From Candida dubliniensis CD36 (Eukaryota; Ascomycota; Pichiomycetes; Serinales; Debaryomycetaceae), in NCBI RefSeq assembly GCF_000026945.1, contig NC_012867.1:1674001-1738000 (forward strand): 64,000 nucleotides of DNA, given 5' to 3'. A program made the position numbers and the translations under genes. The notes under the pieces are model-generated. The model had not been told where the DNA came from. It was given only the letters and a program-made list of their open reading frames with translations, and made no database searches. How positions within the stretch are numbered: position 1 is the stretch's first letter; the number at the start of each line of letters is the position of its first letter. This document shows, in pieces, positions 12,882-50,292 of this stretch.

Positions 12882-15800
12882 TGATTTGATGACTTCCTAA
12901 TTTGGAATGTTTGTCATAACGTATAGGTAAAGCCATGGTTCAACACATAATTGTGAGTTGCAATGGTTTTTGGATCGTTTGCTAAAGGAATATAAAAACA
13001 GAATCAAGGCGGAATGTCTTTTTTTAAAAAACCTCTTCTAGAATTATATAACAACTATATGGTTAGACCATGATTGGTTTTCCAATATAATTAGAAAGAA
13101 GATCAGCGTACGCATCAGCAGTCATCTGTCAAACACAGGGAAGTTTCATGCAGACCAATGTATAATGACTGGTTTTCCATGTAGCATTGGCATACTTGCT
13201 TATTTGTACAACCAGCTTGTTTTATATCAGGATTCGATTGATTGGCGATTTTTTGCCGAAACAAGATTTGCAACAAATCAAAATGCATACCCATATGCGT
13301 TCACTTGCTTCACTTTGACATCGAATTTATTACCATTTTCACCTGTTTCGCATTAAGAAGCACCAAGGGGGGGAAACAAACTGCAAAAAAATGGAAGAGC
13401 TGGCAGATGACAGAAAAGATGCAATTCCTAATTGTTAGCTCTTATCTTCTCTGAGCACGCTTTCTTGATTTATTGACTGCTGAGCAACTACTACTTTAGT
13501 TTTTCATTGTTGACTTTTTAGACTTAAAAATCATCTGATATGGATTGATATTAGTTCAAACCCCATTCCTTCAAAAAAAAAAAAAAAAAAAAACAAATAA
13601 ATCAACTGAGGAAATTAGACTAGTAATCATCCTACAATCACAAACAGAACATGAAAATTCCATTTGACAATCTCACCAAACAAATAATGGTGATAGCAGA
13701 GATTCTTTTTTGTACTTTGAAATTATAAATCCGGTTAGAGTCTGGCCACCTCAATCATTTATATGGAATTATCGATATTTGAAAATTCTTTAGACAACAC
13801 AAGGACTAAAAAAAAAAAAAAAGGACAATTGGCCAAACAAACCATGCCACAAACACAACCATGTTTAAGTTGTTGTGCCGCAAGCGTCATTTGTAGTAAC
13901 AATAGCTGGAACACACTTTTGATTTTTAAATCTACTAATGCTATTATTTCTATGCTTGAGAATTATGTCACCGCCAATGCATAACTCGACAAAACGCTAA
14001 AATGTTTTAGTGTTGTTTGAGTTTTAGTACCAGTCTGTTTCAGAGTTGAGCTTTGTTGCACGCTCTTGGATCTAGAGCCAGAAAATGGCAGTAACAATAA
14101 CAATAACAAAACAAGTTAAATATTATAAAAATAGTAAAACATAGATAGAGTATATTCAATGATAAACAACTGGAGAGGCAGTTTTTCGTGTTCACTTGAG
14201 TGTGGGGTGTGTGTGTGTGTGTGTGTGTATGAGTATGTGCATATGCACCTGTGAAATTGTTTCAAAACCAAAACCTGCCCATTAATAGAAACTTAGAGAT
14301 AATAAAAAAACTTGAGTACTTAGATTTCAGTTTGATTCTACAAGCTCGTTGCGTGAGACAAAAGGTTTAGCTGGTTTGTGACGAGAGGTTCAAAATCCAA
14401 GATGGTTGCTCTTTTTACTTACCCAGATTATATGGGGATTTCCGGGTTTCTAAAGACAAATATGATTAAGTTTGTGTTGTAGCGGGGGCAGTTGCAATAG
14501 TACTGGAGTACATGCACAGAGAAAACACATCACAGGATGTTTTCGAAGAGAAAAAGAGCATAGAACTTTTCAAGCATGATGTAGAATCTTTGAATTTATA
14601 TGGGACAAAATACAATCGTCAATAATTTTTGAATTTACGATTCTTGCAAGTAGCGCAACTACTCTTGTAGAAATGTATACACACGATGAAAGATCATTGA
14701 TAGCTATGTAACTAGCCTCTGGGAATATCTGCAGAACATACCACTACCTAATGTCTTCAAAGTATCAGCACATCAAAGTCCATTTGTTTCCAAACCTTTG
14801 TCTCTTGTGTTTTTAGATTCGCTTTTATTTATAATTCATCATTGTGTATCCATAATACATCCATGAATGAAACAATGGTGCTGGAACGGCACAACAGAAA
14901 AAGGCTAGAACCAATAAATACATCTATTGTCATAGTAACACCAAAAACACTGAATAGTGAGTAACAATAAAAAAAACAATAGCTAAATCAAATCTTGATT
15001 ATCGAATCAACTAACAAATGAATGAATGGGAAATAGTAAATGTGAAAATCACTACTTTATCCCTTGCATTTACACTAGCCAAAACAACAACAACAACAAC
15101 AACAACATTAAAATATACAATAGAATTGTAAAAATTTAGTTCTTACGTTAATCAGAATCTGGCAATACTTTATATGCATGCACATTTACAGATTTAGTTA
15201 TTTATACACAACAAACATGTGGTCCGGCAATTATCGACACCTAGAGATATGCAAATGACAGAGACACGATCATTTACAGACTGACGTGTATAGGTACGAT
15301 AAGGTGATGTTTATCTAGCATACACTGTGTTTAGGAGACCTTGCTGATGACGTAGCTGTTGTTATTGATAGCCACATTGAAAAAAATTGAGCCTCCATTG
15401 GAGATAACAAACACAAAAGTGTGTTCTTCTAATTATATTATACCTTAAGTTTGAAGTTTAGTTCTAGCCTTCAACGTGATATTGTCCGGCACAATTTACA
15501 AGCCAAACAAAAACTAGCCAGGAAGGTTTATCCCAACTAAGCAAAAAACAAACTGTTACTCCTACTACTACGAACATTGTCATTGTTGTTATTAGGGACG
15601 AGTGAAGGGGGAAGCGATTGTTAACGCAAAGAGGATAAAACAACAATGAAACTTTCAAAGAAAAAAAAAAAGTGGCCTGATTTTTTTTTTAAAAAAAACT
15701 AATGTTGTGTAATTAAAGATCTGCATAAAGGTATTTTAGCAAATATGAATAAAGGCGTGGGCACAAATAGAACAGCAATTAACACAGGATAGATTTGTGT

Positions 15801-18800
15801 AAGTTTAGTTTTAGTTTCTAAAAAATGTTAAAAGTATAAGTTGCAGTGTATGTAGAATCTAAAAAAAAAAAATAGCAACAGTAGTTATATTCTTGTGCAT
15901 CTTATATTTGTTGGGCAACAACAAGAACAGCACTACTTGATTGTGTCTGGTTGACTAGAATCACATAGCAAAGTCTTTACTTCAAAAATCAGAAGAGTTT
16001 CAATAAGGAGTAAAAGCTGAGGATTAATTTTGTGGACCCGTACATTTAAACCCACATTAAATGCTACGCGATGAAGAATAAAGATTAGAGGGTGCGTGCG
16101 TGTGACTGTGAACAAAGGAGATTAGAACATGCAGAATACAGGGGGGACAAAAACAATTAGCAACGAAAAAAAAAAAAAAAAAAAAAAACTGGGATGAGGC
16201 AAAGGGAAATATGCCACACCTCAATTATTACACAATAACATATATTATTCTTTCGTGCTCATCTTCCTTTCTTTAAGCAGAATTCGATTTTTCTTTCTTT
16301 CTATTCAATTTAGGGGGAACTTCTGTAGATGAGATTGTCACAATCAAATTGTTTGATTTCGATTGTGCTTCTCTAAAAATAGCAAAATGTCAAATAACGA
16401 ACAGAAAGTTAAAGATATACTTTCCATTTAACAAAGTTACATGTCATGTAGCACTACTACTACTGCTACTAGCTATATGCAATGCATCAACGCAAAAGTG
16501 TTGTTATTTTCTTTTGCTTCGCTTGCCTCGCCTGACAAACCTAGTTAAAGGCGGGTGCAGCTTTTATGGTTTAAACTTCTCTCGATTGAAAACCAAAAGC
16601 TTAAAAAATTAAGCAACTCAAGAGGAACCCTGCACTGGAGATGCATAGATATTTTAACCTCAACAAAATAGACAGGAATGAGGATTGTAGACTAGTTATT
16701 TTCCAAAGTTCCGACACCCCTATCGGTTGTTGTTGCTGATGTAGCAGCTGCTGTTGTTATTGACAATTTCAAGATCATACGAGAATTGGACTAATTCTCT
16801 TTTAGCATGCTTCTTGGCATCTATTATTTTCTTTGAATTGTCGTCGTCGTTGATAGGTTCTACAACAAGCTTAAAATAGTTACTTGTTTGGAAGTTTATA
16901 ATTTAGTTGAGTTTATCTTTAGAGGGTTGTGAGCCAATTAGTCATGCTAAGCCAATCCAATTCACAACAAAATTAAAAAGAAGTAGTGGCACTAAATATG
17001 TTTTATGTAATGTTCATTGTGTCGCATTTATGCGATTACGGCAAATTTGCCAAAAAGCAACAGTCTTTTTGTTCTACTTTCCATTTCTCAGTGAACGAGG
17101 CAAGAGAAGCCAATTACAAATGCCAGCAGGCGCCCAAATAGAAGAAAAAGAACCTAACAACAACAACATTCTATGTAAGGTTTGTTAAACCTGCTTGGTT
17201 TTTTTTTTTGGGCACCGCCTTCTTGGATAAAACTTATGTGTATATGAATTGTAGTAGTAGTTTAGGTATTTGCAATTTACAAATTTATTTGGTTATGGTA
17301 GGGGCTATAGTTTCTGTAACCAGATACTATTTTTTTTTTTTTTTCATCTTTTCATTGGTATATTTTTAGGTTAAAATTGACGATCCATAGATAAATGGAG
17401 AAAGTTAAATTGGCGATTACGTAATTATTCATAGATTGTCTAAGAAGCAGCAGCAAAGGCACGACGCAAAGCATACATTATTGTCTTGAGTTTATCTCTG
17501 CCTGCCTGCCTGCTTGTTTTATTTTTGTTCTTTATTTTTTTGTTGCAACGAGGATGGTCCAACAAGATTCAAAAAAAAAGGAAAAAAGGGAATTTCTTAC
17601 AATATGGGAATACTAGTTTTGGGTGTAATGTTGTTTTGAATTATGAAATTACTACTGGCACACAAGAAGGGACGTAAATGTTGCATTTAGAGAAGACATA
17701 CAAGAATGTGACAACTAAAGTTAGACGTTAATATCAGTAGAATTGGTAGAAGAAGCAAGGGGACCAAGAAGAAAGCTTGAACAAAAAAAAAAAAACGATC
17801 TGCACGAAACTTAACCTAAAATATTCAAGTGGCATACCTTTTCTGTCTGTCTACTGGTTCAACACCACCTAGCAACCCAAGAATTCGACTTTCTGCCTAG
17901 ATTTCGTAACATCGGGAGGGAAAAAAAAAAGAAACTACCACCAACAACAACTACACGTACGAGAAGTCATAGTATGAAGAAGGTTTGAATACCCTAGGCT
18001 ATGGTCGTGGTTCTGAACTAGAGCCAAATGGTTTGTGTAATCCAATAAACCAAATTTAGACGCCAAAGTGAAAGAAAATATTAGTTACATTACATTCTGT
18101 TCTGGCTCAAACTCCATACCAAAGCAAAGCAATCACACCTAAACTACAGAGAAAAAGAAAAGCTAAAAAAAGAAACAAAAGTGGAAACTAAATTCCACCA
18201 ATAGATTGTCTAATTAATTAGAGAATGTAAGCTCTTTTTTTTTAGTAGTCTTATCTGCACACCAAGAGTTTTGTAGAAGTTTAGTTGTACATACATGCCT
18301 CATCAAAAATTCCACAAATCTACAATCAAAAAATGTTCTAAAATGGTAATAACACCAATCAAGAGAAATTGTAATTTACTCCAACTTTCAACCCGTTCTG
18401 CAGGAAATTACACACAGGTGATTATGTAACCAACTGAACAATAGAAACAAGTTTGTTCGTCCACAAAGTTATAACAGTCACAAAAAAAAAAATAAGGTTC
18501 TTCTTCTTCTCCTCCTCCTCCCATCAACTTGACGAACAAAAACAAAAAAAAAACAACCCATCTTACTCCCATCCTGTTCACCATTTGAGTATGTTAATGA
18601 ACATATATGTATTTTAACTTTTTAGCTTAATGTGAAACTGATATCTCTAAAAAGAAACAACTTTATTCACTTATCTGAGTAACCAATAATTCCAAACCAA
18701 AGCAAGATGCTTCGTATATAGCACTAGAAACACAGACACGTACAAGAACAATTGTGATTGTATGTCGTGTGTCGGTGCATTCTTTTAATTGTGTAATAGA

Positions 18801-21800
18801 TATCCTTAACCCACTCATTTGTCTACTTTGTTACCGGTGCCGAGTAATTATTTCCGTGTGTGTGTGTGTATGTATTGTACTATTTCTGCCGAATATTTTT
18901 TCCGTTTCTTCTACAGCCATGGCAGCGCGCGCCTCGATATTATTTTCATCTCCCTAAGCCAAAAGTATGTACACACACACACTTTCGTTCTTTTATTTCT
19001 GCAAAGGCATAATAAAAGAAAAGCTTGACAGAAAGGGGAGCAAAAGGGGTCAGGCGATATGTCTAATCCAAATCACATTCTGGCTGTAATGATGTCTCGT
19101 TTAATTTATTGAGAGCTGGATGGTGGGAGAAAAAGTGAGAGCCATTTTGCAACAATAAACACAAATTATCTTTAAAATCTCCCATTTCCATTTTCCGGGT
19201 ATTATTCGCTACCCGGTTTCATAGAAGGCTCTCCAAGGTACTCCCAAAACCGAAAGGAAAAGAGAGAACAAACAGACAGTACGTTAACAATTGCCACCAT
19301 GTCAAATAATAATTATCGTCACCCTCAAACCTATTGTCTGTCTTGGTGCCGAACAAAAAGAAAAATAGAAATAATAATACATAACTTGCACATTCTAATA
19401 TAAAACAATTTGTAACACTTCTTTTTTAGGAAACGACATGAGTTCTTGTGTTAGAATACTCTCTTCTCCTCCTTTCTCTAACAACACTTTATTCTAATGT
19501 TCTTGGTGTCGCTTTGTCTTTCATATTTTCTTTTACCATCTCTCTAATTCATTCCCCTTTTTATTTTTCAGGTAGTGAGAGCAAGAAAAGAGTGAAGGAA
19601 TAGTATAAGCAGTGCAAATGTGAGTGTGGTGACTCTTCTTTTTGCAGTGGCATGTTGGCACTTTCATTCCAGTCCTCATGTGCAAGAAATTATTAATGCA
19701 TCTAATCAAGATGCAACTGCAGCCGAACTGGTATCATTGCTACAGACGTTACAGAAATGAGTGAATAAATGGTTGTTCTATATGTGGTAATTTTATTCTA
19801 CAACAGCGATGTGTCAAGTAAAAGACTATGAATCAAAGAAAGAAATGACAAAAGAGGGGGGTGGAATAGGGGGAAGAAGGGGGTAGAAACAAGCAATAAC
19901 CCTGGCCCTTGTGGTGAATGTGGATGAGTGTGTGTGTATAGTTTATTGTTGAATTGGTGAATCAAAATTACCCAAAAAGCGTGTGTGTGTGTGCGTGAGT
20001 GCGTTACTCACAATCAAGCAGCTGAACTCTTTGCATTGTCATTTTGTGTGTTTGCTGTTGTTATTGACAACTTATCAAACAACAACAATGGTGGCTACAA
20101 AAATTGAAACAGCAAGTTTTTGAAATTTAGTGCTATACAGCTAATTAATTAATTAAGATTGGGTTTGATTAGTATTTTTTTTTTGGCCAAGAATTTACAT
20201 TGCATTGTCCATTGTGCATTCTTTCTATTTGCTATTTTATTCCCAGTTTGTTGTTGTTGTCGACACCAACAATAACTAATTTTACAAGTTTATATGCATA
20301 TATGCATACTAGCTAAAACAATGGCACAATAACAACAATGGTAACAAAGGGAGGAGGTTTTTGTAATATGCATTTCGTGATAAAATGGCTTATTATGCAT
20401 TCAGAGTCATACATATAAACCATACATATACATATATTACACCATGCAATCAAGACTAATTATATAAACCACTAAAGCAGAATTCATCAAGTGAGAAGTA
20501 GCAGAAGGATTTCATTGTTGTTGGAATCTCTTTTAAGCAAAAACCCAAAAAATATCACTAAACACAAAATCGGTTTTGCCTTTTTTCCTTCTTTTTTGAT
20601 CAAAATCTTGTATCTTCTTATACCCTTTTCTTTATTTACATAATATTATTAATATTATTAAGTGGAACTTACTAAATACGTTTCCATTCATATACTAACC
20701 TTTGAGTTATTCCGCCTAAAAAAAAAATAATTTTCATATTACCAACAGGTATTCTTTTTTTTTTTTTTTTAGTTTGGTGGGAGCAAAATTAAGAAAATCA
20801 GAAATATAAATAACATCCAAAAGGATCCAAACCTTTGCAAGGAAAAAAAAAATTACTTTTATTTGAAAAAGAATTCATTTTACAATTTTGAATATCTATC
20901 ATTTATCAATTAGACTCGATTGGTATTAATAACAATAGATTTGAATATAATACAAAAAAAAAAAAGAATAGGAATTGATTTTTCACAAATATTATTCTTT
21001 CATCCTTTAAAGTCTTTCCGAGTTTTTTCAGTTTATTTAACTATCCAATTATCCCAACTTTAATTCATCCCTTATACGTATTTCCTTTCTTTTTTTTACT
21101 CAAAAGTTTGAAAGAAATTAGATTTGCTAGAAGAGATTTCAAGTCGTTCCTTAGTTATCGTTTCAACCAATTTCCCTACCCACCTAACTCGTATTGTATA
21201 TCACCAAACATATATCAAACGATTCACCCAGGGTTATTTCAAGTCTCTCATTCACCCCTTGCTTCAAATAATCAAGTTTAAATAGTAATTGCTACCAAAC
21301 AGACAGAGTCGAAAGGTTAGCAGAGAACAAAAAAGAAAAAAAAACCTACTATTATTTACTGTACTAACCCTAACACCAACTTTAATATTTTAGCTTATTG
21401 CTTTTACTTGGTAGGGAAAATTTTTAACTTTAAGTTTGCATACTGGAAGCTATAAATCTATTAAAGTGTATTACATCCAGCCCATCCTGCTTAAACTAAC
21501 AATTTGAAGAGGTAAGCAAACAAACGACCGAATTACATATATATATATATATAAAAAAAAAAGAGAAAACAGAATACTAAAGCAATAGAATTTTATTTTT
21601 TTTGTTTTTGTTTTTGTTTTTTTTTTTTGGTTTAATCCCTTTGTGTCCCTTGCATACTTTTACATTAGAAACATACATACATTGGCATTCAGACTCATTA
21701 CACTCACACAGTTTACGATTTTGTTGTGAAGATAGACCCATTTATTGAATATTCTTCATAACGTCCATTTAATCTTATATTTCAAGAGTTAATTGAATAA

Positions 21801-22041
21801 CCACTTGGTCCAAGAATTCATACTAAGGCGGGTTTTACTATTTTATTTAGCCTTTTTTGCCTCCCACAATACTTGCTCAGGTCACGTTATTTACATATTT
21901 CTTTTTTTTTCTTTTTGTCTTACTTGCTGAAAAAAAAAAAAGGAAAATAAACAATACAAACAACACCAACCTTTAACTCATCATCCAATTATCCTATATA
22001 AGATTTGTTCTATTAGACTACCCAGAATATAACCCACATTA
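12882..22041 (+). promoter_or_regulatory. 9-kb gene-free upstream region of EFG1
   Basis: No convincing coding sequence is seen over 9.1 kb; the frames present are short and cross repeats. The C. albicans EFG1 upstream region is likewise around 10 kb, binds several morphology regulators, and yields long 5' leaders with different lengths in white and opaque cells. Visible here are: a (GT)n tract at about 14210-14228; further GT tracts near 18857 and 19981; G-rich runs at 19856-19883; the 14-mer GCTGTTGTTATTGA three times (ending 15368, 16763, 20067); many A/T homopolymers; and, close to the gene, a TACTAAC (21362-21368) followed by TTTTAG at 21388-21393, which could be part of a leader intron. 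The whole block is likely regulatory DNA plus 5' UTR (inference). Confidence 0.65.
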
Positions 22042-23676
22042 ATGTCAACGTATTCTATACCCTATTACAATCAAATGAACGGAAATAATTACAACGGTAT
22101 GCCCCAGCAGACAACTGCAGCTAACCAACAAGCTTTTTCTCAGCAACAACCGACAGCAACAGGTAATACTAGCCAACAGCAACAACAACAATCAGCAGCC
22201 GTGGCCGCCGCTGCTGCTGCTCAACAACCTTACAACTACATGTTTTATCAGCAACAAGGACAACCGGGTCAACAGACAACAGGACAGCAACAATATGATT
22301 ATAGTGCATACAATAGATACCTGTACCCTGCCGCAACATCTCAGCCAAATTACTATCAGCAAACAATCCCTAATCAATTGTCACAACCACAACCACAGCA
22401 TTACAATGGATCAAACCGTAATTACACAAGCGCTCCTAGCGGGGCCCCTATACCTTCAAATTCCACCAGCGGGCCTTCACAACAGCCACCACTACCAGGT
22501 CAGCAGGCAGTACCCATTCCACCACATGTATCGACAATGCAACAACCAACTCCTGTTCAGGATACATTGAACACCTCGAATACTTCCACTGTGGGGCAAT
22601 TCCAACCACCGGGAATCAGGCCACGAGTGACAACTACGATGTGGGAAGATGAAAAGACCTTGTGTTATCAAGTCGATGCCAATAATGTGTCAGTTGTCAG
22701 AAGAGCAGATAATAATATGATCAATGGGACCAAATTGCTCAATGTGGCCCAAATGACACGTGGTAGAAGAGACGGGATTTTGAAATCGGAAAAAGTAAGA
22801 CACGTTGTGAAAATTGGATCGATGCATTTGAAAGGAGTCTGGATTCCATTTGAAAGAGCGTTGGTCATGGCTCAACGTGAAGGCATTGTGGATATGTTAT
22901 ATCCTTTGTTTGTCAGAGATATTAAACGAGTCATCCAAACAGGAGTCACTCCTAATGCTGCTGCTGCCGCCGCCGCTGCAACAGCCGCCGCTGCTTCTAC
23001 CTCGGCTCCTCCCCCACCACCTGCTGGTACTGCTACTGCTGGTACTCCCAAAATCACTGGTGGAAATAGGAACAGTATTTCTGCTACCAATGGTGGTAGT
23101 AGTGCGTCTGGTGCTTCTGGTGCGGGTTCCACCACTAGTCCTGTAAATACCAAAGCTGCTACTACTGGTACACCTCAAGGTAATTATTATCAAGCTTACA
23201 ATCAGCAGCAGCAGCAGTATCCTCAACAGTATGGTCAATACAATGCTCCTGGTAAGAATCAGAATACACCTGGATCACAACAAGGCTCTGCAACTTCAAC
23301 CAACGATCTGTACTTACAGCAAGCTCAAGCTCAACAGCAACAAGTATACGGCTATCAACTGAATTTTTATCCGAATGCTGCCCCTGCTGGCGGTAATTAC
23401 TATTCGAATTATTACCAACAGCAGCAACCAAACTATGCATCATCATATCCATATCAACAACAGCTGCTGCAACAAAAACAACAGCCTAATCAACAACAAC
23501 AATCAGATCAACAGCAAACAGTTGCATCTTCTACACCCAGTGGTGGTACAGGAACTAGATCGGTCCATCAATCACCTCAAGTTCAAGGGTCGGTTCACCC
23601 CTCACCCCAACAACACCAAACTAATCAATCTGCTCTACAATCTACTACCACTCACGCTAAGGAAGAAAAGCAGTAA
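22042..23676 (+). CDS. EFG1: APSES transcription factor Efg1
   Basis: 544 codons. The N-terminus [15 protein letters not shown] and the core match C. albicans Efg1. A Gln-rich N-terminal region with polyQ and polyA runs (about 45-85) precedes the APSES DNA-binding domain (about 195-302). That domain includes [40 protein letters not shown] and [13 protein letters not shown], the basic helix-loop-helix-like fold. Ala/Pro runs (306-340) and a Gln/Tyr-rich tail follow; these low-complexity ends support condensates and activation or repression in C. albicans. Efg1 is a nuclear master regulator of hyphal growth, biofilms, white-opaque switching and metabolism. Five in-frame CTG codons (94, 423, 440, 475, 476) lie outside the DNA-binding domain and should encode Ser. 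Compared with my memory of the C. albicans protein the polyQ runs are shorter, suggesting C. dubliniensis. It converges with RAD26. Confidence 0.98.
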
Positions 23677-36254: not shown

Positions 36255-39200
36255 TCATACTTCACTCACAGTTCTTACTACATAACGGGGATCCTCACTC
36301 ACAGTCAGACTCTCAGACCGCCCATCTCTTCTGGTCCTCCATCTCTGTTCGATATTAGTAATTGCTCGAGTTAACAAATTATTGCCCCCGTCGATTGGTC
36401 CATTTCCAAAAGTGGCAACACGACCTAGTGTGGTTGTTCTTTCCATAGTATTGTGTCTATTAATTGCGTGCTCTTCTTGTAACCTGTCATGACGTTTCAT
36501 GGCTGCATTAGGTAGCATGATAGCACGATCGATAGTGTATGGCAATCCTCTATGTCTTCCTCTTATCATCATCGCAATAATCACCAACTTTGAAATGACA
36601 TTAAATTCACCACTAAGAGAGCAGTCCACGCCTGGGTATCCCATAGACATCCCCACTGTACCGTAAGCACTGACTATTTCAAAAAGAACTGCAAAAATCG
36701 AAAAGCGTAGGTCCTGCTCTTGCAATCTCTTACCCTCGGCAATACAAATTATGAACAACCCAAGACAAATATACCACAAATCATATGACAATTGGTTTCT
36801 CAAATGCGACCCAACATAGTTTGATGGTGCGTTCTCATCGACACCCTCAGCATTCTCCTTTGCATACACCCCCAAAGACTGTTCCTCATAAACATTGGTT
36901 CGTCTCACGGAAATAGCAATGGGCAAAACAGAAATATACATCATGATCAAGTAACTCACCTGAGTTGCCGCATGCAACAGCGACAAATCCATTACTGAAA
37001 ATCCCACAGTTCTAGTGCAAAATGCTTGGAACAAACCATTCAAAACCCTATAGCCCATATCAACTCCTTTGAAAGACTCGTCGTGGAGATCAAGTATGCA
37101 GAATATGACCAAGTCAAACCCATTCAATACTACCAATATAAAAAACAACCACCAAGTAGGAACAGAAGGAAATAACAACGTAAAACAGCGACGTGGGTGA
37201 TCTAACAAGAACCCTAAAGACTCCTTATACAAAGATAATGGCCTTGCCGTTTTGAACATGACCCAGATTATGAATCTCAATAATATGGGAAACCCCGTGT
37301 TCCCAATGACAATCAAAAATGAGCAGAGGATTTGTACAAAGGCATTCTGGTTGAAAGACATCATAGAATTGGACGTTAAAGTTAAGCCCAAGTCGTTGAA
37401 TGACGACTGCAGTGTGAAAAACGCCCACCAGGCAGGGGAGATCGAGTTGCTAATCATCAAATTTTTATAGTGAGGCATACAATAAATCCATATCAGCAAC
37501 ATTACACCAGGGATAATATTGAATCCCACATAATAGACTGCAATAATTTTGATCAACAACTTAACTGCCCGATACTCGATACCTCCTAACTCCTCTTTTT
37601 GCTCGTCTGTCAACTTAATAAATGTAGAGTTTCGACCAACAGTGGGCGTCCACGATAGATAATTACCACTCATTGTTCGCGATAATCTCTGGTACGAATC
37701 GTTTGTGTCAACATTTTCTATTGAGCCATCGCCAATCGAAACATTGGAATGTTGATTAAAAGACGCATTCCTTTGTGCTCTCGGAATTTTCCGCTTTGTT
37801 GCTTTGTTTCGAGTTTTGCGCCCACCGCTCGTGTTGTGTTGCGGAACATCGAGGGTATTGCTTCTCTTGGTATATTTCCTTCCACCAGTTTCGTCTTTTG
37901 ATGGCAATACCAAATTAGATTGTGCCTTAATTAATGATGCACCATTTTCTAGACTCCTCTCGCATTCATCATCGTCGTCGTCGTCGTCTTGTTCATGTTC
38001 ATCATTGCTATCGTCTTCTATGTCTTCATCGTCCTCATATGACCCTACATTATCACTATCATTGCCTTCAGCATGGTTGGCCACTTGTTTGCCATCTGAA
38101 ATATCACTGTTTTCAGAATCTATTGATGCATAATCCTCTTCTTCCCCGTCATCTTCAGTATCAGTCGGTGCAACATTTATAGATCCTTTTTTACTTGAAT
38201 TTGATAATGTTTTCTTCAACTTGCTTGTCCAGGGGTTGTAGTTTTTGCGCTTCTTTGAGGTGATCCATTTCTTTGCTTTTCCAGGAGTTTCTTTAAGCTG
38301 TATCTCTGGTGTTCGTTTCTTCTTTTTAGTGAATATTGGATTTGCCCCGTCTGAATTTTCTATTTCTATTGGTGGCTTAATAATCAAAATATCGTCTTCA
38401 TCCTCTTCGTTATTGCTGGCACCTATGCTATTTGTTGCGGGAGTAATTCCATCGTCACGCAAAGAATTAGTATCGTCTTCTTGATCAGCAGAAACCTCGA
38501 TGTTTGAGCCGCGAGTTTTTCTACGAGCCAGTGAACCGATGTTCAAAAACTGAATTCCCTTAGATCTAGCCTCTTGATTCTTCTTGTGCTCTTGTAACAT
38601 ATTGATGGAGCGATACATATCTTCAGGATCAATTGATTTCCTTCTTCTGGGATGAGGCAAAGCACTGAATTTGATACCAGAATCGGTGCGACTGTGTCGA
38701 TGTTGAGGTCTTGGTCTCTGTGGTTCTTCAAAATGAATTTTCTCCTGGATACTGACAGGGCCATCACGATTCTCCTCCTCATAACTATCTGAAGGCTCGC
38801 TATGGTGCTCTATACTGTTCCCGCTTTGTTCATTGTAAGCCGCCAGCACTGGTTGGCTTGTTTGTGACGATGACGACTGGGGCGATGAAGACGACCCCTT
38901 TTCCGCCTCCTGCGCTTGAAACCCCAATACTTGGTTATTGAAAGTGTTTAATCTTGTTGAACTCATTGTTGGTGCCGATCCCATCCTCGCAAGTGTTGCA
39001 GACTTCCGCATTCTATAGTCCATTAACGAACGTTCTTTAATGTTATCGAAATGACGCTCAAAGTAATAAAGTCTGACAAAAAGCAATGAGCCATGAATAA
39101 ATATTGGCGTTGCCATAGTGGTCAACAAATACAAGATAATTTGTTGGTATAGGGATAGGTCGTTGACATTGACGGTATTCAAACCTGCTTGGGTGGAGGC

Positions 39201-39449
39201 CCCCGCCGTGAAAAACAAAACGTCAATATATGCACATGTCTTTACCGGATACACCAATATTGATCCCAAAATGACCAAGGTGAGAATGTAAAAGTAATGA
39301 ACAGCCCGGAAATTGGGTAGCACAACCTTGGCATAGGGGTATATTTTTGATGCTATATGGTGGATAAAATTTCTAACGTAGTATCCATAGTCAATATTGG
39401 TGAAGTTTCGGGTGTGGCGTTTGTAGAATCCGGATATTCTGTACAACAT
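36255..39449 (-). CDS. TRK1: Potassium transporter Trk1
   Basis: 1064 codons. The plasma-membrane Trk/Ktr/HKT fold is four membrane-pore-membrane units. The four filter segments are visible as GASTQAGLNTV (about residue 84), SSFNDLGLTLTSN, CTRTVGFSV and SAYGTVGMSMG, each with its essential Gly. Between the first two units is a hydrophilic loop of roughly 480 residues (about 150-630), full of Ser, Lys/Arg and long acidic runs including a row of Asp. Fungal Trk proteins differ mostly in this loop. Trk1 takes up K+ driven by membrane potential and also passes chloride in C. albicans. The gene runs away from the centromere candidate on its right and is the last gene before it, 1.8 kb from the left arm. 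Confidence 0.96.
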   Translation of the reverse strand: MLYRISGFYKRHTRNFTNIDYGYYVRNFIHHIASKIYPYAKVVLPNFRAVHYFYILTLVILGSILVYPVKTCAYIDVLFFTAGASTQAGLNTVNVNDLSLYQQIILYLLTTMATPIFIHGSLLFVRLYYFERHFDNIKERSLMDYRMRKSATLARMGSAPTMSSTRLNTFNNQVLGFQAQEAEKGSSSSPQSSSSQTSQPVLAAYNEQSGNSIEHHSEPSDSYEEENRDGPVSIQEKIHFEEPQRPRPQHRHSRTDSGIKFSALPHPRRRKSIDPEDMYRSINMLQEHKKNQEARSKGIQFLNIGSLARRKTRGSNIEVSADQEDDTNSLRDDGITPATNSIGASNNEEDEDDILIIKPPIEIENSDGANPIFTKKKKRTPEIQLKETPGKAKKWITSKKRKNYNPWTSKLKKTLSNSSKKGSINVAPTDTEDDGEEEDYASIDSENSDISDGKQVANHAEGNDSDNVGSYEDDEDIEDDSNDEHEQDDDDDDDECERSLENGASLIKAQSNLVLPSKDETGGRKYTKRSNTLDVPQHNTSGGRKTRNKATKRKIPRAQRNASFNQHSNVSIGDGSIENVDTNDSYQRLSRTMSGNYLSWTPTVGRNSTFIKLTDEQKEELGGIEYRAVKLLIKIIAVYYVGFNIIPGVMLLIWIYCMPHYKNLMISNSISPAWWAFFTLQSSFNDLGLTLTSNSMMSFNQNAFVQILCSFLIVIGNTGFPILLRFIIWVMFKTARPLSLYKESLGFLLDHPRRCFTLLFPSVPTWWLFFILVVLNGFDLVIFCILDLHDESFKGVDMGYRVLNGLFQAFCTRTVGFSVMDLSLLHAATQVSYLIMMYISVLPIAISVRRTNVYEEQSLGVYAKENAEGVDENAPSNYVGSHLRNQLSYDLWYICLGLFIICIAEGKRLQEQDLRFSIFAVLFEIVSAYGTVGMSMGYPGVDCSLSGEFNVISKLVIIAMMIRGRHRGLPYTIDRAIMLPNAAMKRHDRLQEEHAINRHNTMERTTTLGRVATFGNGPIDGGNNLLTRAITNIEQRWRTRRDGRSESLTVSEDPRYVVRTVSEV

Positions 39450-41227
39450 AGTTTGGTTTGATGACTCTCTCGTACACCAATCTAAATGTCCTATACTTGA
39501 TGAACTAATATCAACTGTTTAATGTTAGATACTTTTTCTGTTTAATTGGGGTGATGGGTATAGTCTGTGCTTATATCGGGGCAAAGACTAAAAGGCGAGA
39601 TCTCTGAAATAAATACCAATCACCTGCCAGGGGCAAACACTTTGATATTTATAATACATACCTCTGACAAAGGGATCAATGGTTTCAGTTTAAATTTGAC
39701 GACAGCTTTTGTCTTTCTTATCTTTTCTGTTATATGTCACCAGTCTTCTTGTCAAAATAATTTCCCCCCTCGTGCTCTAGATATGTATCTTTCTTCTGAT
39801 ATTGCTGTTTGAGACTATCGGTAAAACTCTTTATATTCCAAAAATAGTTAAAGGGATTCCAAATATTCAATCAGCTTGTTGTTATTATAAATATATTTTG
39901 CAAGACAATTCACACTGCGGTTTTGTTTATCTTATTTTTCGTTTCTCATTTCATTTTTGTCATATTATTTTTGCTTTTTTTTTTTTTTTCATCTGAAACG
40001 ATGACCATCATTGGTGTATCAATTTTTAGAATCTCACCATAAATTTTAGGTGGTAGATAACTCGCTTAAAAAGGTTAAATTCACAACGACTATTTATGCC
40101 ATTTCAATGTACTACCATTGTGCAGCTACATTATACCTTTCGTATCATGTGTTGTTTTCTTTTTTGAACTTGCAGAGGTCCCCTTCCAACTATGCAGAGA
40201 GTTTTTAGAATTAGATGGGTGCCGTGCCCATGTGATTCAGATACAGAGAACTAAGACACAGTAACAATTACAGCCTTCGGTAGTATAGTATGCGACAAAG
40301 TTGTGATTTTTTACATCAAACCTGGTAGTAATGTTAACCTTGCACGTGGATGCTAAGTCTTGGTTCACATTCAACAAACCAATCTTACCACGGTCATGTC
40401 TATTATCCGTTGCGTGATTAAATGAATTATTTCATCAATGTGTACAGCATTTAGGGGTTTGTACAATATTTGATGAGCGTGACTAAAGTATTCAACAAAG
40501 CACACATAGTATCTGCAAGCGTCTGTAACAAAAAACTAGCTAACTCCCAGTCGATTAAATAAGTTTTGCAACATGTTCAACTAATCATTGTGGTCTTTTT
40601 GTACCCTGATGACATTTTCGCGTCTCAACACTTTTGTTGGAGCATGTATTTTTAGTGATTATAATAGAATTCCAAGTCTTGAAATTGATTTGCCATAGTA
40701 TTCAGCATAGATGCTTTTACATTATAGCAATGTTTGGGATTCACTTAATCTTCTACAACCCAATGATGTTACTTTCAAACTTATTAAGACAATCAAAAAT
40801 CATGTACTGAATTATTATGAACGGAAACTGTGTTACTTTGGCTATTCTCGAAACTTTGACATTTCAACTGTATCTTACATGTATGTCATTTGTTGAATTG
40901 TGCTTCTTCAGATCTATTAAAATTCTGATGCTCTAGTTATAATTAGCATGTCCACTCTCGCTAAACTACTTGATGGTATATATTAGATTGCTCAACTAAA
41001 AATCCATGGCTATTACATTTCAAATGCCTCAGCATCCACTCCTATTTTCAACCTAGAATTGACAAAATTAACCAGCTGCAAAGTATTTTTTAACAAAATA
41101 CACTTTTTCCTGCTACAGTACAACACAGTAGGGCCATCCTTATAGACGAGTTGTTAAAAATTGCACATAAACGTATCCTCTCGAACATCTATCGGCTCTT
41201 TTTCCAATTTTAAATGTGTATCCCAAT
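39450..41227. other. Pericentric intergenic DNA left of the inverted repeat
   Basis: TRK1 promoter plus DNA that flanks the centromere candidate. No gene is supported; the frames at 39567-39812 and 40711-40896 are short, without known motifs. A T run of 14 lies at 39976-39989. Confidence 0.5.
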
Positions 41228-42362
41228 AAAAAAGTATAATTTTTCACGTTCTTTTCGTAATCTAGCTCTGATAGATTCACCTTCTTACGTGCCATAGTGA
41301 AAACCCAATACCCACAACCATCGTCAATAGCACTTGGTGTTGCTCCTCAATGTTGCTTTTTTTTTTTTATTTGGTTGCGAAACGTTGCTTACTGGTGGCT
41401 ATGCGGGTTTTCAGGACACCAGAAGATGGCCACCATCTTGTCATTCATCTTTGAAAATAGCCAGTGGTGGGATTTTATTACCTGTAGGTATATGAGCTGC
41501 ATGGTCATTCTATTGCAAAGAATGTTGATGCTTTCTACAAACAGATAAGTTTTAATACAACATTGATGCTAACTTTTGGTAAAATTGTTTGCTAAACATT
41601 ATTTTCCCCCAGTTCACCGCAATAAAAGCTTATCCCGGCAAATACACTCATTAGCAACACCTTACATCCACTAATATGCTATATTACACAACACACATCA
41701 ATTTATACAGTATAACATGGTTCCAGTTTTAGAGAGAGACAACAGTGTTCCATGTTGAGTTGCAATGACCAGAAAGGCTTTTTCCGGCCACCTCTCCAAT
41801 TAACGCTTGGGCAAAAATTATCAGAAACACTCAAATGCCAAAAACAGGAGATAGACAATACCATCCACGCAGATAGCCCACATACCCAAATGACAGACAC
41901 TTGCCATGCATAGCTCCCAACTCCACCACGCTTTTCAGAGACACCTGCTACATCGATCATCTAACAGACAAGGACAAAAGCCTTTCCTGGCATTAGCAAA
42001 AACCAAGAAGCCACATATTGCATGTCGTGGCAAGGTTTTGCCTACAACTTGCAGCCAAAAAAATACATACACACCAGTTTCCCTTACCCCTAGAAAAACA
42101 TTTCCACAGTACGAAAACTCAACCCACTTCTGTTATTCATGCTACCAAAACATGAGAACCACAGCAGGTCTGGTGTTTATTCCACAGTGACTTGGGTGTC
42201 CACAGTATGTCTTCCGCAACAACAGAATCTTTTCGCTGCCACAGACGGAGGCACCATCACCACAAGCGTTATGCCAGAGCAGCACAAGGAGTCATTGCCA
42301 CGCATTGACCAGCAACAAGTAAGCGTCGGGAACAACCTCCAAACCAACCCGCAACTTCAACA
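41228..42362 (+). repeat. Left arm of the large centromeric inverted repeat (1135 bp)
   Basis: The reverse complement of this segment recurs at 46730-47866. By eye I find about eleven substitutions and one length change (a T run of 12 at 41357-41368 against 14 A on the other side), so identity is about 99%. The length change accounts for the whole 2-bp difference between arms. About half of the substitutions fall in the outermost 90 bp. Open frames inside (for example 41906-42190) are translated identically in both arms, but have no known motif and look non-coding. Confidence 0.95.
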
Positions 42363-45300
42363 AAAGTGAAACTAAGCTTGCTGTATCTCTTCTAACCGAG
42401 TCAGTCAACCAACGAAATTGAACCTATCAAAGCACTTGCAGCACACATTATAAACTGCAGGATTCTTGGTCATATGTCTTGGGATCTCTAGAGATCTGGT
42501 TTGCAAACGTAACTAACTTCAAAATGATCTAATCAAATCGCTGACATCCTGAATGTCAAAGCACAAAAACAACACTATTTTAATTCAAATAGTTTGCAAC
42601 TACTTCTAATGTTGCATACACAAACAACACCGAAAAGACCCATCCGCTCCTGACAAATCTTCAAATTGACCTACCAATTCTTCGCTCGAACAAAAGATTG
42701 GGAAATGCATCAATCCTTGAATCAAACCAGAGAGTGAGATCCTGTATTTCTATTTACATTTCCATCTATTCTCAAAACACGAAAGCGTTATCTGCGTAAT
42801 TGCAATCATTCTAATTAGGTTATGGAATATAGAAAATCCATTTCCAAAAAGATAGTCTTTTATAAACAAGAAACTCCTGAATATTCAACTATAACTCAAT
42901 ACCACCGATAGCATATAAATCTGACAATACAGCATAGCAATGAATCTCTACAACACTAATGTACGACTATTTCCCACATTCTATTCTGCATAGTCCATGA
43001 CTGAAACATAACAAGCCCACCATCAATTGGGACGACCACCAATTCCATTTCAATACACACAAACCGTGTTTCTAACCAGATATCTCGTCTCCTATAAACA
43101 TGGACTTCTCTTCACCCTTAACCAAACAAAGCGAAGAAAGTACATTAACACTTGTACTGCTAAGTTCAAGCATAGCCTCTGCTCTTACCAATACAAGTTC
43201 TACCAACTTAGATTAATACCAGAAGCGTATCTGTAACCTCATTTAGAATAATATTTCCTTATACTCATTCTTAACTTTTCCAAACTTTCACAAACCAAGT
43301 CTAAACAATCAATCTGACCACCACTACCAACAGTTTCCACACAACTCAGCAAGACACGTATTGTCAATATCATACTTATATCCTCTGTTACTTCACAATC
43401 ATCCAAAAAGCTCTATCAAACAATAGCCACCTCCCCTATAATTACAACTCAAGGTCATACACCTTTAGAAACCTAATTCAAATAGCTATTGGTATCAACA
43501 GACCGAATGCAACACTTAGTCTCCAATTTCACTACGGATTCTCAGAATCCATGCCTAATCGAATATCTATTCTGGGTGCACCAAACACCCTTTGTCTACT
43601 AACAGAACTTGTTTTAGTCTCTGAATAGGGAGTTACAGTTCTAAATCAACAACTAACACTTGCTGTATACTCGATCTACATGAAGATACTCTTGTGCCAA
43701 TTCTGCTTAATAACACTCTCTAAAAGACGAACCTTAGGAAAATTCCCAAGTAGACATAACACAGTTACAGAACTAACTCAACGAAACTCTATACATCACA
43801 GCCAGTAATGTGACTCAGTGATCAATAAAATTCACTTACTTGCAAACAAACCAATGGCTTCCTGAGTCAAATCACCATCTGAGATGCAAAGCGTAATTTT
43901 GGAAATAGCTCTCTTTTGCCCATGTGGCAATAAATATTACGCTACGGCTGCAATCCATCGTCCCTACAGTACACACCCAAAGTAAAGCCATTGCACTACA
44001 CAATTCTAGATGATATGCAAAACGGATCCAAATAATATAAATTCTACACTATTCTAATAAACATAATCCAAAAGAGTTCTCGTTAAAATGCATTTAGCGG
44101 TAGTACAAGATGCAGTAACTACAATAAATTTGTCATTGGTTCTCTCAACGATCGCTATTCTAATGAGAATATGATTCATAGCCAGAAAGGGTTTGCAGAG
44201 ACAACTTTTCCTACCACTCAATCCCAATTTCTCTCTAGAAGCTACTCTTTGATTTTTGGGTCAATCACAGTACTTACATTCACAAAGGCAATGGAACATG
44301 TTCCTTTAGATCGGTCCGCATTCAACCAATTGGAGCTTTGACTGATTACAGAACCGGTCGATTGTGGTGGATATTTGGGTTGCAATGTGCTCTTTCTAAG
44401 AATCATCCTAATTGCTCTATCCTCGTAGTATACTCGGATGGTTCAATGTACAATGAAAGCACGTCGGATTTTGACAACTTTAGGATCAACCAGTAGAATG
44501 TAAGTTCAATGTTGCACGAATGAACGGTTTGCTGTTTTAGATAGACCTGTTAGGGTACTGTACATTTACATTGTAAAAGACAATCAAAAGGCTACGATGA
44601 CAAGATCGTGTAGGCAACCTGCTCTTTTGAAATGCGTTTTGTAATAACTACTACTAGCTTATACTGTTGATACAACTGTTTAGCATACACTAGTAATTGA
44701 AGTTTTCGGACACCTATATAATTATATATTTGATGATCTGCATCCACGATTTGTTTGCACTATACAATTGGTGCTATTTTGTATCAATTCAACCACTAAT
44801 TAGTAAGATATAACAAACGAATTGGCTGCCAAATTTACAAATCTCTGATTTTTTGGTTTCCCGTACCTGCAGCTATAGCTATTGAAGCTTCAGTTTTCAT
44901 CTTCTTAAGAGCTGGTTCTACATAAATTAGCTTAAAGGTTGACAAAAATAGATTATGGTTATATGGTTAAAGGTTGACAAAAATAGATTATGGTTATATG
45001 GTTACCAACTATGACGTTTAGGCGTTATTCTTTCTGGTGGTTTATAATAGAAGGTAAGTCGATTATGAGCGAAATTAATATGTGTAGAGTATCTGCCAGT
45101 TTTATACTTAACAGTTAGTGGCTTATGTTGATGCTAGTCAACTAATGCCTACTTTGTATACCTTCATCAATATATAGATGTTTAGATTAATCAATTTTGT
45201 TTGACATTGTGGAAAGTTAATCGCGGGTATATAAGAATTTGATAGTGTGATGTTTTTGACAGGCTTATCAAATGAGAGCGAGTTTTGTATTTTATTAAAT

Positions 45301-46729
45301 CGCCAGGTTTTTAGCAATGTTTCTGTAAAACGACTTTTCTTATTGGCAAGGCGTGTGGTAGGCTATTATATGTTATCTGAACATAGCATAGCTAAAGTGG
45401 TTGTTGCCATACATGAAATAAGGTTATTTGCAATAAGCTGGAATTTTTGTTCGAATTAGAACTGGTACTGGTATAATGAGATGACAATAGTCATGGAAAA
45501 ATCAGATTGCTGGTTTGGTTGGTAGATTTGTTTAGTTATACGGTTACTGAAGTTGTAAGAATTAGTAGTTTCTAAAAGGCAAGAGTATCGGTAGAAAATT
45601 ATGGTGATAGTACTATAGTCTTATATTAGGCTTTAATTTTCAGATATATGAGAAAGATGTTTGGTCTGATAATTCCTATGTACATTTATTAATCTATTCT
45701 ACAGGAAGGGGTCAATTTTTCTCTTTGGGTTGAGATTCTTATTCTAAAGGCGCAAAATTTTAGAAGGGTTATCACTTTGCATTTTGGCTGGGACTCCAGG
45801 AATGCATTGGAACAATCTGAGTAAGCTGCCTTTTGTATGTGGAAATGAATTGCGTTGGGTAAAGATAATTTTAATGCAGTTTTTCTTGAATAACGGTACA
45901 GAGTGTTTGAATAAATTTTTAGTAGTTTGCAGATTCACGTAGTGTGCTTGCCCCACAGCGGCCTCGTTTAGTTGCTGTTTGGCTTGGGTTGTTGTTTTCT
46001 GCTTTAAATTATGTAATGTAATTGGTATGGGACTGGTGGTGAGACCCCAAAATGAAAGTGATTAATAGACTATGCTAGTTCGTATTCCCAAAATATATGC
46101 ATGAAGAGTTCCAGTTTTGGACATTTTGCAATGGGTGAATTTATATAGCAGTCTTAACAGACCTCCAATGAATATTGGGTTAAGATATTAGTTGTATTAG
46201 TAAATCTTGTGAGGAAATAGTGATTAAGTTTTAGTATTTGGCAGTTATTCTATTTGCGAGTGCTACGTAGCTCATTCTTTGATTTGTTGGTGGGTATTGA
46301 TCTGGATGTTGTGGGTGGCTGGTGGTGCTTCAATGCGAGGAATGGTAAGGCTTTGTTAATTTTGAAGATTGAGTTATTTAATGTGCTTGCACGTCTTTTA
46401 AATTAATTGGATTAGATTGGGAAAGAAGTTCTTTGTTAATAGTCCTTGATATTTTAGTTGTAATGGTATATTGATTAACTTCCTTAACTTTTGGAATTGT
46501 GAAGAAGTTAAAGCGTTTTTCTCGTTGGTAAATGAGTCATTGTTGGATTGATATGGTCCAGGTTTTTAAGGTGCGTAAGTTATCGGGATTTCCTCAGTCA
46601 AAATATGCTTGTGTTTTTATATCCGGATTCTGAGACATGCTTCAGTGTATAGATGTACAACGTAAAAGTGGGAGTTCACTGAGCATGACATGTTGCAGGA
46701 ATGGTAAACCCTTGTTAATTAACCGTTGG
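42363..46729. other. Unique centromere core with strand-composition switch
   Basis: 4.4 kb with no supported gene on either strand. The left half is C- and A-rich on the top strand: 43321-43440 has 39 C and 8 G. The right half is G- and T-rich: 46201-46320 has 33 G and 11 C. The change lies between about 44.05 and 44.4 kb. Only short frames (70 codons or fewer) occur, and none has a recognisable motif. Confidence 0.8.
44932..45001 (+). repeat. Perfect 35-bp tandem duplication in the centromere core
   Basis: Two identical copies, 44932-44966 and 44967-45001, each beginning TTAAAGGTTGAC, followed by three matching bases of a third. It lies about 0.6 kb to the right of the composition switch. 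Confidence 0.95.
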
Positions 46730-47866
46730 TGTTGAAGTTGCCGGTTGGTTTGGAGGTTGTTCCCGACGCTTACTTGTTGATGGTCAATGCGTGGCAATGA
46801 CTCCTTGTGCTGCTCTGGCATAACGCTTGTGGTGATGGTGCCAACGTCTGTGGCAGCGAAAAGATTCTGTTGTTGCGGAAGACATACTGTGGACACCCAA
46901 GTCACTGTGGAATAAACACCAGACCTGCTGTGGTTCTCATGTTTTGGTAGCAGGAATAACAGAAGTGGGTTGAGTTTTCGTACTGTGGAAATGTTTTTCT
47001 AGGGGTAAGGGAAACTGGTGTGTATGTATTTTTTTGGCTGCAAGTTGTAGGCAAAACCTTGCCACGACATGCAATATGTGGCTTCTTGGTTTTTGCTAAT
47101 GCCAGGAAAGGCTTTTGTCCTTGTCTGTTAGATGATCGATGTAGCAGGTGTCTCTGAAAAGCGTGGTGGAGTTGGGAGCTATGCATGGCAAGTGTCTGTC
47201 ATTTGGGTATGTGGGCTATCTGCGTGGATGGTATTGTCTATCTCCTGTTTTTGGCATTTGAGTGTTTCTGATAATTTTTGCCCAAGCGTTAATTGGAGAG
47301 GTGGCCGGAAAAAGCCTTTCTGGTCATTGCAACTCAACATGGAACACTGTTGTCTCTCTCTAAAACTGGAACCATGTTATACTGTATAAATTGATGTGTG
47401 TTGTGTAATATAGCATATTAGTGGATGTAAGGTGTTGCTAATGAGTGTATTTGCCGGGATAAGCTTTTATTGCGGTGAACTGGGGGAAAATAATGTTTAG
47501 CAAACAATTTTACCAAAAGTTAGCATCAATGTTGTATTAAAACTTATCTGTTTGTAGAAAGCATCAACATTCTTTGCAATAGAATGACCATGCAGCTCAT
47601 ATACCTACAGGTAATAAAATCCCACCACTGGCTATTTTCAAAGATGAATGACAAGATGGTGGCCATGTTCTGGTGTCCTGAAAACCCGCATAGCCACCAG
47701 TAAGCAACGTTTCGCAACCAAATAAAAAAAAAAAAAAGCAACATTGAGGAGCAACACCAAGTGCTATTGACGATGGTTGTGGTTGTTGGGTTTTCACTAT
47801 GACACGTAAGAAGGTGAGTCTATCAGAGCTAGATTACGAAAAGAACGTGAGAAATTATACTTTTTT
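46730..47866 (-). repeat. Right arm of the large centromeric inverted repeat (1137 bp)
   Basis: Reverse complement of 41228-42362 with about 99% identity. It differs in length only in an A run (47724-47737, 14 A). The outer edge contains the start of a 62-codon frame (47799-47987) that reads out of the arm into unique DNA; the left arm has the same first 23 codons with three amino-acid changes. Confidence 0.95.
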
Positions 47867-48609
47867 GATGGCGGGGTTATTTCACAGAAATTCAATCAAG
47901 AAACTTCTTTCAATTGAAAGAACCTACAGTTCGATAGAACTGTTTTATCGCACATTTAACGTGTACGTTAAATCTGAGATTCAATAATCTTTATGAACCC
48001 ATGGACACAATTAAATTGTTTTTCAAGCTAACTTTTTAGATATATTATATGTGATATTATGGATTGTTCATTTAATATTTAAGTTACTATTTATTATTAA
48101 TAAGGTTAATTCCTCTTGATTTCGAAGACAGACTTGACATTTATCTTAATATAAGCTCTATTTGATTTTGCTTTTGACAATAAAGACAGTTTGCTACTAA
48201 GGCACATTCGCAAAAAGCTCTCCAAAACCAACTACAATGGGATGAGGATACAAGCTCTAAAAGTTGGTTGCTGACTCTACAACCTTTTCTTTATGAAATT
48301 TTCATTGAAGCAAATCCGAATAACAGAAAATGCTTGTACCACACCCCGACTCTCAATATTACAATATTATTATTAGTCCTTATTAGTTTCTTTTGGTGTT
48401 TATTCAAACCAAAGTGGTCACCTGCCTTTTGTTAATCAAACTATTTATATAAATTCTGACACAATCAGGTCTCCAGTCATTATCAGTTGCAATGCCGCCA
48501 ACACTCAAGACTGTGATTCCAAAAAAAAGGCCAGCTTTGTAATTACATCACAGTGCTGAAATATGAAATCAAAAAAATACTATTTTATTGTATACTTCTA
48601 CAGGCAGTT
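47867..48609. other. Intergenic DNA right of the inverted repeat
   Basis: AT-rich flank between the right arm and the 3' end of the aminotransferase gene. Apart from the tail of the 62-codon frame leaving the arm, nothing recognisable is seen. Confidence 0.5.
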
Positions 48610-50292
48610 CTAATTATTGATGTCGTATGGCAAGCACCCAAACCTGTGCAAAATACGCTCAATACCGTCCATACCATTTTCCAAATGGTGCAATTCAGGT
48701 CCATAACTAATTCTAACGTAATTATACCAAATGATCTCTTCCATATGAGCCAAGTTTTGTGGATTAATCAAGAAAAAGAACCCAGGAACCACAATAACCT
48801 TCTCATGTAAACATTCATGGAAAAAACCCAAACAATTACTCAACTTCCCTGGCAAATGACTCAAATTCAACCACAAATAAAAAGTGGAGTTTGGGATAGT
48901 TTTCTTGGTGAACTTGAACCCCATCTTTGACAATCTTCCAATGATATAATCACGCTTCATTTTAAAGTGCAACTGCAATGCCATCATTTCTTGCTTCACT
49001 TTCAATGGCTGCAAGAAATCAACAGCAACATGTTGCAAAGGCGAGTTTGATCCACCATCCAAAAACGACCCTGCAGAGGAAAGGGCATTGATGTAATCTT
49101 CGGGACCCAAAATCCAACATATTCTCCACCCAGGCAATCTAAATGCCTTTGTCAAACCATTCAAAATCAACACAGGATCACGGTTCACATCCTCGACATA
49201 TTCGGCCGAACTTATGGACGACCCAGTACAGCCTTCATCATAATAATAGTGTGAGTAGAATTCGTCCATAATAATTAAACACTTTTCACGACACATGCGA
49301 TGCAACTCCTGCAATTGATCTCTCGATAAACAGTTTCCAGTTGGGTTTCGAGGGTTTGATGTCAACAATGCACTCATTCCCCTTGCCAATTCATCTCTAA
49401 TCAACTCAAGATGCATTTCATAATTGTCCATTTCCTTCAAAGGCACCGGGATGGGAGAGAAATTTTTCATGGTGGCAATAAGCTCCGAGTATGCAGTGTA
49501 ATCAGGAAGAAAGAATGACAAATAACAATCGGCAATGATTGTGGCAATTCTTGTCAAACCAGCTCTACCCCCTGGCACAATACATACGTTTTTGTACGTG
49601 TATTTCGATGCTTTGTCTTGACGGTACTCTTCGTTGTAGTAGTTTGCGACAGCCTCACGAAGCTCCTTAATACCAGCAGTTGGGGCATACTCACGGTAGT
49701 CTACTGGCAAATTAATTTGCTTGGGCCTAGGAAAGGACCCAGGAATTGAGTCACCGTGTTCAGGTGCACCTTGACCCAAATTGGCCCAATCACCAACATG
49801 TTCAGAGTCGTACCCATACTCTGCAGCCCTTTCGGTTACCCACAAGACCCCAGTCGAAGACTGTTTGGTGTTCAATGCAGGCTTGAAGGTGCTCTCGTTA
49901 AATCTTGGTTTAGGCAATGGGATGGGTGAGCTTTCTCTACCATTCTCCAGCTTTGACAATTTGGAGATCAAATGTTGTCTAAAGTTTGAGTTTTTCAAGT
50001 TTGGGGTGGCCAGTGGTGTTCTTCCTGGGATTGTCTGATATGTGCTCGCATGGTAGTTTTCACGAACATGGTGTGGCTGCGGAGACCTCAAGTTTGGCTC
50101 ATCATGAATGTGGTGGGTCCCAGATTGTGAAATCGGATTGTGCAATGGAGTTGTGGGGGAAGCTTGAATTGCTTCCAATAACGAGGATGCAGACCTTTTC
50201 AAAGCAGGAGGTAATGTTGATTCCAATCTTTCAAACTCTAACAAGGACTCCTGGTCATTGTCGGACTCATCAGTGAGCTGAAAACTAGACAT
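48610..50292 (-). CDS. Class I/II PLP-dependent aminotransferase, substrate unknown
   Basis: 560 codons. The first 145 residues are polar, Ser/Pro-rich and not part of the enzyme fold. The catalytic part begins near VLWVTERAAEYGYD. It has the family's landmarks: WANLGQGAPE, EYAPTAGIKELREAV, IVPGGRAGLTRI, TSNPRNPTGNCLS (the Asn-Pro-x-Gly loop), IMDEFYSHYYYDE (Asp and Tyr for the PLP ring) and LNGLTKAFRLPGWRICW, with Lys382 as the likely Schiff-base lysine. A C-terminal Arg (VRISYG) fits carboxylate binding. It resembles fungal relatives of aspartate/aromatic aminotransferases with a long N-terminal extension; I cannot assign the substrate. It is the first gene to the right of the centromere candidate and is divergent from DAD4. 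Confidence 0.85.
   Translation of the reverse strand: MSSFQLTDESDNDQESLLEFERLESTLPPALKRSASSLLEAIQASPTTPLHNPISQSGTHHIHDEPNLRSPQPHHVRENYHASTYQTIPGRTPLATPNLKNSNFRQHLISKLSKLENGRESSPIPLPKPRFNESTFKPALNTKQSSTGVLWVTERAAEYGYDSEHVGDWANLGQGAPEHGDSIPGSFPRPKQINLPVDYREYAPTAGIKELREAVANYYNEEYRQDKASKYTYKNVCIVPGGRAGLTRIATIIADCYLSFFLPDYTAYSELIATMKNFSPIPVPLKEMDNYEMHLELIRDELARGMSALLTSNPRNPTGNCLSRDQLQELHRMCREKCLIIMDEFYSHYYYDEGCTGSSISSAEYVEDVNRDPVLILNGLTKAFRLPGWRICWILGPEDYINALSSAGSFLDGGSNSPLQHVAVDFLQPLKVKQEMMALQLHFKMKRDYIIGRLSKMGFKFTKKTIPNSTFYLWLNLSHLPGKLSNCLGFFHECLHEKVIVVPGFFFLINPQNLAHMEEIIWYNYVRISYGPELHHLENGMDGIERILHRFGCLPYDINN

Follow-up and report, generated by a model that had tools for sequence, protein, structure and literature searches.

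The ORF-poor interval described here can be assigned with near certainty to CENR, the chromosome R centromere of Candida dubliniensis, which is of the small regional type and has a unique core enclosed by two inverted arms. Both this kind of centromere and its inverted repeats are already in print. The strongest sequence evidence for the assignment is a reversal of GC and AT skew within the unique core, a feature absent from the original prediction, in which a reader working from the letters alone found a real regional centromere. The whole stretch analysed (the window, 64 kb) corresponds to bases 1674001-1738000 of contig C1, and positions given below are those of the window unless another contig is named. 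From size, order and neighbours, C1 (2,267,510 bases) is taken to be chromosome R and C2 to C8, which descend from 3,214,061 to 1,022,435 bases, are taken to be chromosomes 1 to 7, with C. albicans chromosome sizes as the guide.

The left arm (41228-42362, plus strand, 1135 bp) pairs with the reverse complement of the right arm (46730-47866, minus strand, 1137 bp), agreeing in 1124 of 1137 aligned columns (98.9%); the differences comprise 11 substitutions and one 2-base change in the length of a poly-T run. Between the arms lies a core of 4367 bp (42363-46729), the probable Cse4-binding region. The 4.4-kb core between two opposite 1.14-kb arms proposed at the outset was confirmed, with its outer limits (41228 and 47866) exact to the base, and self-comparison of the 64-kb window returned these arms as its sole long inverted repeat (the two pairs that reached 60 bp are fragments of this one repeat). 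The whole structure sits in an ORF-poor pericentromeric interval of 9160 bp (39450-48609), bounded by the end of a TrkH-family gene at 39449 and the start of an aminotransferase gene at 48610. With ATG starts and genetic code table 12, 23 ORFs of at least 40 aa overlap this interval and the longest has 94 aa, in agreement with a core described as gene-free. These dimensions are those of the small regional centromere as defined in PMC3276562, that is, a CENP-A region of 3-5 kb in an ORF-free region of 4-18 kb. When the DNA from 41228 to 47866 was searched against its own genome (14,618,422 bases, 8 contigs), three places were recovered, all of them at the same locus and representing the self match and the arms against each other, in a loose first look that scored one candidate, skipped simple repeats and could let weak or simple repeats escape. 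An older inverted repeat inside the core was not detected by local alignment of one half with the reverse complement of the other (score 50.0, against a mean of 57.2 and sd of 7.9 in 60 shuffles of 3-base blocks), and the DNA just outside both arms showed no similarity (score 33, against 33-56 in 10 shuffles). A 35-bp unit in 2.1 perfect tandem copies (44932-45004, plus strand) is found within the core, ~0.6 kb to the right of the skew switch.

The core was divided into fifteen steps of 300 bp. GC skew lies between -0.19 and -0.55 over the initial six, crosses zero and lies between +0.13 and +0.47 over the final seven; AT skew moves in the opposite direction. The sign change occupies positions 44128-44351: the cumulative AT maximum is at 44128 and the cumulative GC-skew minimum at 44327, and the GC-skew switch is placed at 44331 with 2-kb halves and at 44351 with 2.5-kb halves. 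With halves of 2 kb, GC skew rises from -0.33 to +0.25 (a delta of 0.58) and AT skew falls from +0.12 to -0.13. The delta in the rest of the window is at most 0.31 (maximum at 9241), and the 0.58 of CENR exceeds all 13 of 13 comparison stretches (delta at most 0.36), a nonrandom set partly chosen during the hunt for centromeres. One additional sample had been taken from each of C2 to C7, and two from C1 besides the window. Extra comparison stretches gave values of 0.14 and 0.01 (two stretches) and 0.21 (one joined stretch of 18 kb). In this regard, Koren et al. (2010) described the skew pattern at all C. albicans centromeres, together with ORC and earliest replication, attributed the skew to an origin that is constitutive and the earliest to fire, and stated that the pattern is virtually identical at all C. 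dubliniensis centromeres (PMC2924309). At CENR, the switch would mark a bidirectional, constitutive origin at ~44.3 kb that, to judge from the skew, may fire early and in almost all S phases; the two forks leaving it would build up, over evolutionary time, a leading-strand excess of G (and T) on either side. Since inverting a core with a central origin leaves the skew pattern unchanged, the skew is uninformative on core orientation.

Four companion centromere loci were sought in the same genome by means of ribosomal L3 and Porin_3 family anchors, RPL3 presumably lying near CEN2 and TOM40 near CEN7, and of positions guessed from C. albicans coordinates. The loci were located at C2 1,598,021 (CEN1, delta 0.71), C3 1,945,111 (CEN2, delta 0.61), C6 497,401 (CEN5, delta 0.64) and C8 436,931 (CEN7, delta 0.69), and since they were recognised by their skew switch, the common skew (0.61-0.71) is partly circular and the inverted arms constitute the independent observation. 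Like CENR, CEN1 and CEN5 have a unique core with a mid-core skew reversal between inverted arms, but these arms (349 bp and 97.1% identical at CEN1; 2126/2128 bp and 98.7% at CEN5) are unlike those of CENR, with no DNA similarity at E 1e-5. CEN2 and CEN7 share with CENR the skew reversal and an ORF-poor core, whereas long arms around the core are lacking within 10 and 18 kb, respectively, and LTR sequences are found instead. At CEN2 there was no inverted match at E 1e-3 within 10 kb, whereas in the 18 kb around CEN7 a weak inverted match of 38 bp flanked the core (82%, E 6e-4), and inverted matches of 95 bp paired LTR ends with sequence at the far limit of the stretch, which truncates the match. 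The skew reversal is therefore suggested as a more general mark than the arms, being present at five of five loci, four of them recognised by it, whereas three of five have inverted arms. The arms at the C1, C2 and C6 loci, and not at C3 or C8, agree with the published set: PMC4741521, citing Padmanabhan 2008, assigns pericentric inverted repeats to CEN1, CEN5 and CENR in both C. albicans and C. dubliniensis, every one of these centromeres having its own. For C. albicans the printed lists vary, comprising CEN4, 5 and R in PMC7292649, 1, 4, 5 and R in PMC7263194, and 1, 4, 5, 6 and R in PMC4871872; regarding long repeats, PMC6591007 names CEN4 and CEN5, and a passage of PMC3276562 attributes them to chromosome 5 alone.

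Some further features of the companion loci were observed. C8:428433-434829 is occupied by an LTR element whose two 516-bp LTRs are identical and which has a stop-to-stop frame of 1424 codons; it ends ~2 kb from the CEN7 skew switch, and a 516-bp inverted copy of its LTR, 98.6% identical, is located beside the CEN2 core (C3:1942372-1942887). An LTR retrotransposon has been published for CdCEN7 (Cd36_71790), with a similar one within 50 kb of C. albicans CEN7 (PMC4741521). A stretch of 110 bp is common to CEN1 and CEN5 (71% identity, E 2e-8), and the CEN1 interval (C2:1594160-1608000) contains no stop-to-stop ORF of at least 150 aa across at least 13.8 kb. CEN3, CEN4 and CEN6 were not located in one stretch each on C4, C5 and C7 plus one more on C5; CEN1 was absent from two C2 stretches and from two of three later ones, and CEN5 from one C6 stretch.

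The 11 substitutions between the CENR arms are clustered, falling at arm positions 16-198 and 912-1123 and leaving between them a 714-bp stretch without any. For 11 uniformly placed points a gap of this length has a probability of 2.2e-4, in a test picked after the alignment had been seen. Clustering is weaker in the CEN5 arms (25 substitutions, longest gap 569, P 0.011) and is not found in those of CEN1 (10 substitutions, P 0.10). Gene conversion between the arms would leave such a pattern at CENR, the alternative being a recent duplication with other causes of change at the ends. Either way, their near-identity cannot date the repeat, as gene conversion would keep arms alike at any age. The idea that this copy preserves an ancestral form consequently found no support, as CENR is without DNA similarity to the four other loci and the likeness of its arms cannot show age; inverted-repeat centromeres have been raised in print as a possible ancestral state for C. 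albicans and C. tropicalis, and a comparable suggestion is relayed in PMC7263194. The arms, unshared with the other centromeres examined, probably recombine with one another, which would keep most of their length identical. In C. albicans, inverted-repeat recombination yields isochromosomes at CEN4 and CEN5 and, at CEN4, also core inversion (PMC6591007). The same outcomes are predicted for C. dubliniensis CENR, where arm recombination should let the core flip or isochromosomes of chromosome R form. As for Cse4 (CENP-A) chromatin, general knowledge and the published work suggest that it would cover ~3-5 kb centred on the unique core and be inherited epigenetically, with no sequence motif.

A comparison with C. 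tropicalis is pertinent here, as its homogenised inverted-repeat centromeres likewise enclose a mid core of a few kb in a pair of inverted arms (PMC4741521, PMC7292649). In that species all seven chromosomes carry similar arms, whereas those of CENR match none of the four other loci compared (CEN1, 2, 5 and 7), two of which lack arms, and the loose own-genome search, with its one scored candidate, returned the CENR arms at this locus only. Against those four loci the CENR sequence gave no match at E 1e-5, and a looser cut-off yielded only short chance-level pieces for CEN2, CEN5 and CEN7 (E 0.44 or weaker). Moreover, PMC7292649 describes the 12-bp IR motif of the C. tropicalis arms as absent from C. 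albicans and C. dubliniensis centromeres. A bolder proposal, which we consider unlikely, is that the arms exchange continually, so that they are kept identical and the core can flip, and that their mirror structure helps to load Cse4, making CENR partly dependent on DNA structure, as in C. tropicalis, with CEN2 and CEN7 purely epigenetic. If this were true, two centromere modes would coexist in one genome. In any event, armed and armless centromeres in a single genome offer a ready system for testing arm function, the facts themselves being in print.

The neighbouring genes also bear on the identity of the locus as CENR. To the left lies a TRK1-like gene of the TrkH family of potassium transporters (36255-39449, minus strand, 1064 aa; PF02386, E 6.5e-153) and to the right a class I/II aminotransferase gene (48610-50292, minus strand, 560 aa; PF00155) with 5137 homologues, the best 120 of which include a top match 97% identical and many entries named as yeasts. 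At ~17.6 kb from the left arm, a gene on the plus strand (22042-23676) encodes an EFG1-like APSES protein with a KilA-N domain, the name EFG1 being that of the original prediction. In C. albicans, the distance to the CENR core is 102 bp for orf19.599 and 1126 bp for orf19.598 (PMC4871872, Table 1), orf19.600 is TRK1 (PMC11878023), and the numbering of orf19.599 and orf19.600 suggests that they are adjacent. Synteny of the flanking genes with C. albicans CENR was thus borne out on the left side at the gene-family level, through the TRK1-like neighbour and these printed positions. The C. albicans centromere is next to orf19.599/598, near TRK1, and likewise has short inverted repeats unique to it, but according to PMC2924309 the primary DNA is not conserved between the two species. 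Taken together, the skew, the arms at the C1, C2 and C6 loci matching the published set, and the TRK1-like neighbour lead to C. dubliniensis CENR; of the two species first suggested, C. dubliniensis is favoured by that neighbour, by the arms at C1, C2 and C6 and not C3 or C8, and by the LTR element at C8.

Other aspects of the surroundings were less distinctive. The CENR interval is indeed gene-poor, but a density of one gene per 2-3 kb on both sides had been overstated, as a second gap of ~9 kb (12882-22041), without ATG ORFs of at least 120 aa, is present upstream of the EFG1-like gene. With two such gaps in one window, a lack of genes is not diagnostic by itself; the second gap showed no centromere-like skew switch (delta at most 0.31 outside the CENR interval). 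A search for RNA genes in the window found only a tRNA at 12811-12881. Linkage to rDNA is expected of chromosome R, and a search of the genome with the 5.8S rRNA family gave no match among the 39 of 401 candidates that were scored.

That the locus could instead be an ordinary long inverted duplication, or the remnant of a mobile element, in a non-centromeric gene desert, with skew produced by something like an ordinary origin, appears very improbable. Long repeats, some of them inverted, do exist outside C. albicans centromeres (PMC6591007), the window has its other ORF-poor gap, and the S9 legend of PMC2924309 mentions one weaker skewed non-centromeric site in C. dubliniensis. However, the skew delta at this locus is close to those of the four other centromere loci and above every comparison stretch, by its neighbouring gene its position agrees with that of C. 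albicans CENR, and the loose genome search recovered the arms nowhere else. It is more improbable still that this is a former or secondary centromere and that the active one lies elsewhere on the chromosome, a situation for which the polymorphic C. parapsilosis centromeres would be the model: relocation within a species is known in a related species (PMC7263194) and the skew, recording long-past activity only, is compatible with a recent move in the strain, but synteny with C. albicans served to identify the centromeres of C. dubliniensis, which are CENP-A-rich (PMC3276562), and the neighbouring gene puts this locus in the corresponding place.

Finally, a coding role was considered for the CENR arms, and a protein search with the 94-aa arm ORF gave no candidate. 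Another ORF of 62 aa (47799-47987) runs across the outer boundary of the right arm and is matched by a 57-aa protein from an ENA contig (P0122; 87% identity, 84% of the query aligned). Judged by eye, the match covers 37 of 40 residues beyond the arm and far fewer inside it, as if a relative had the flank in common but not the arm.
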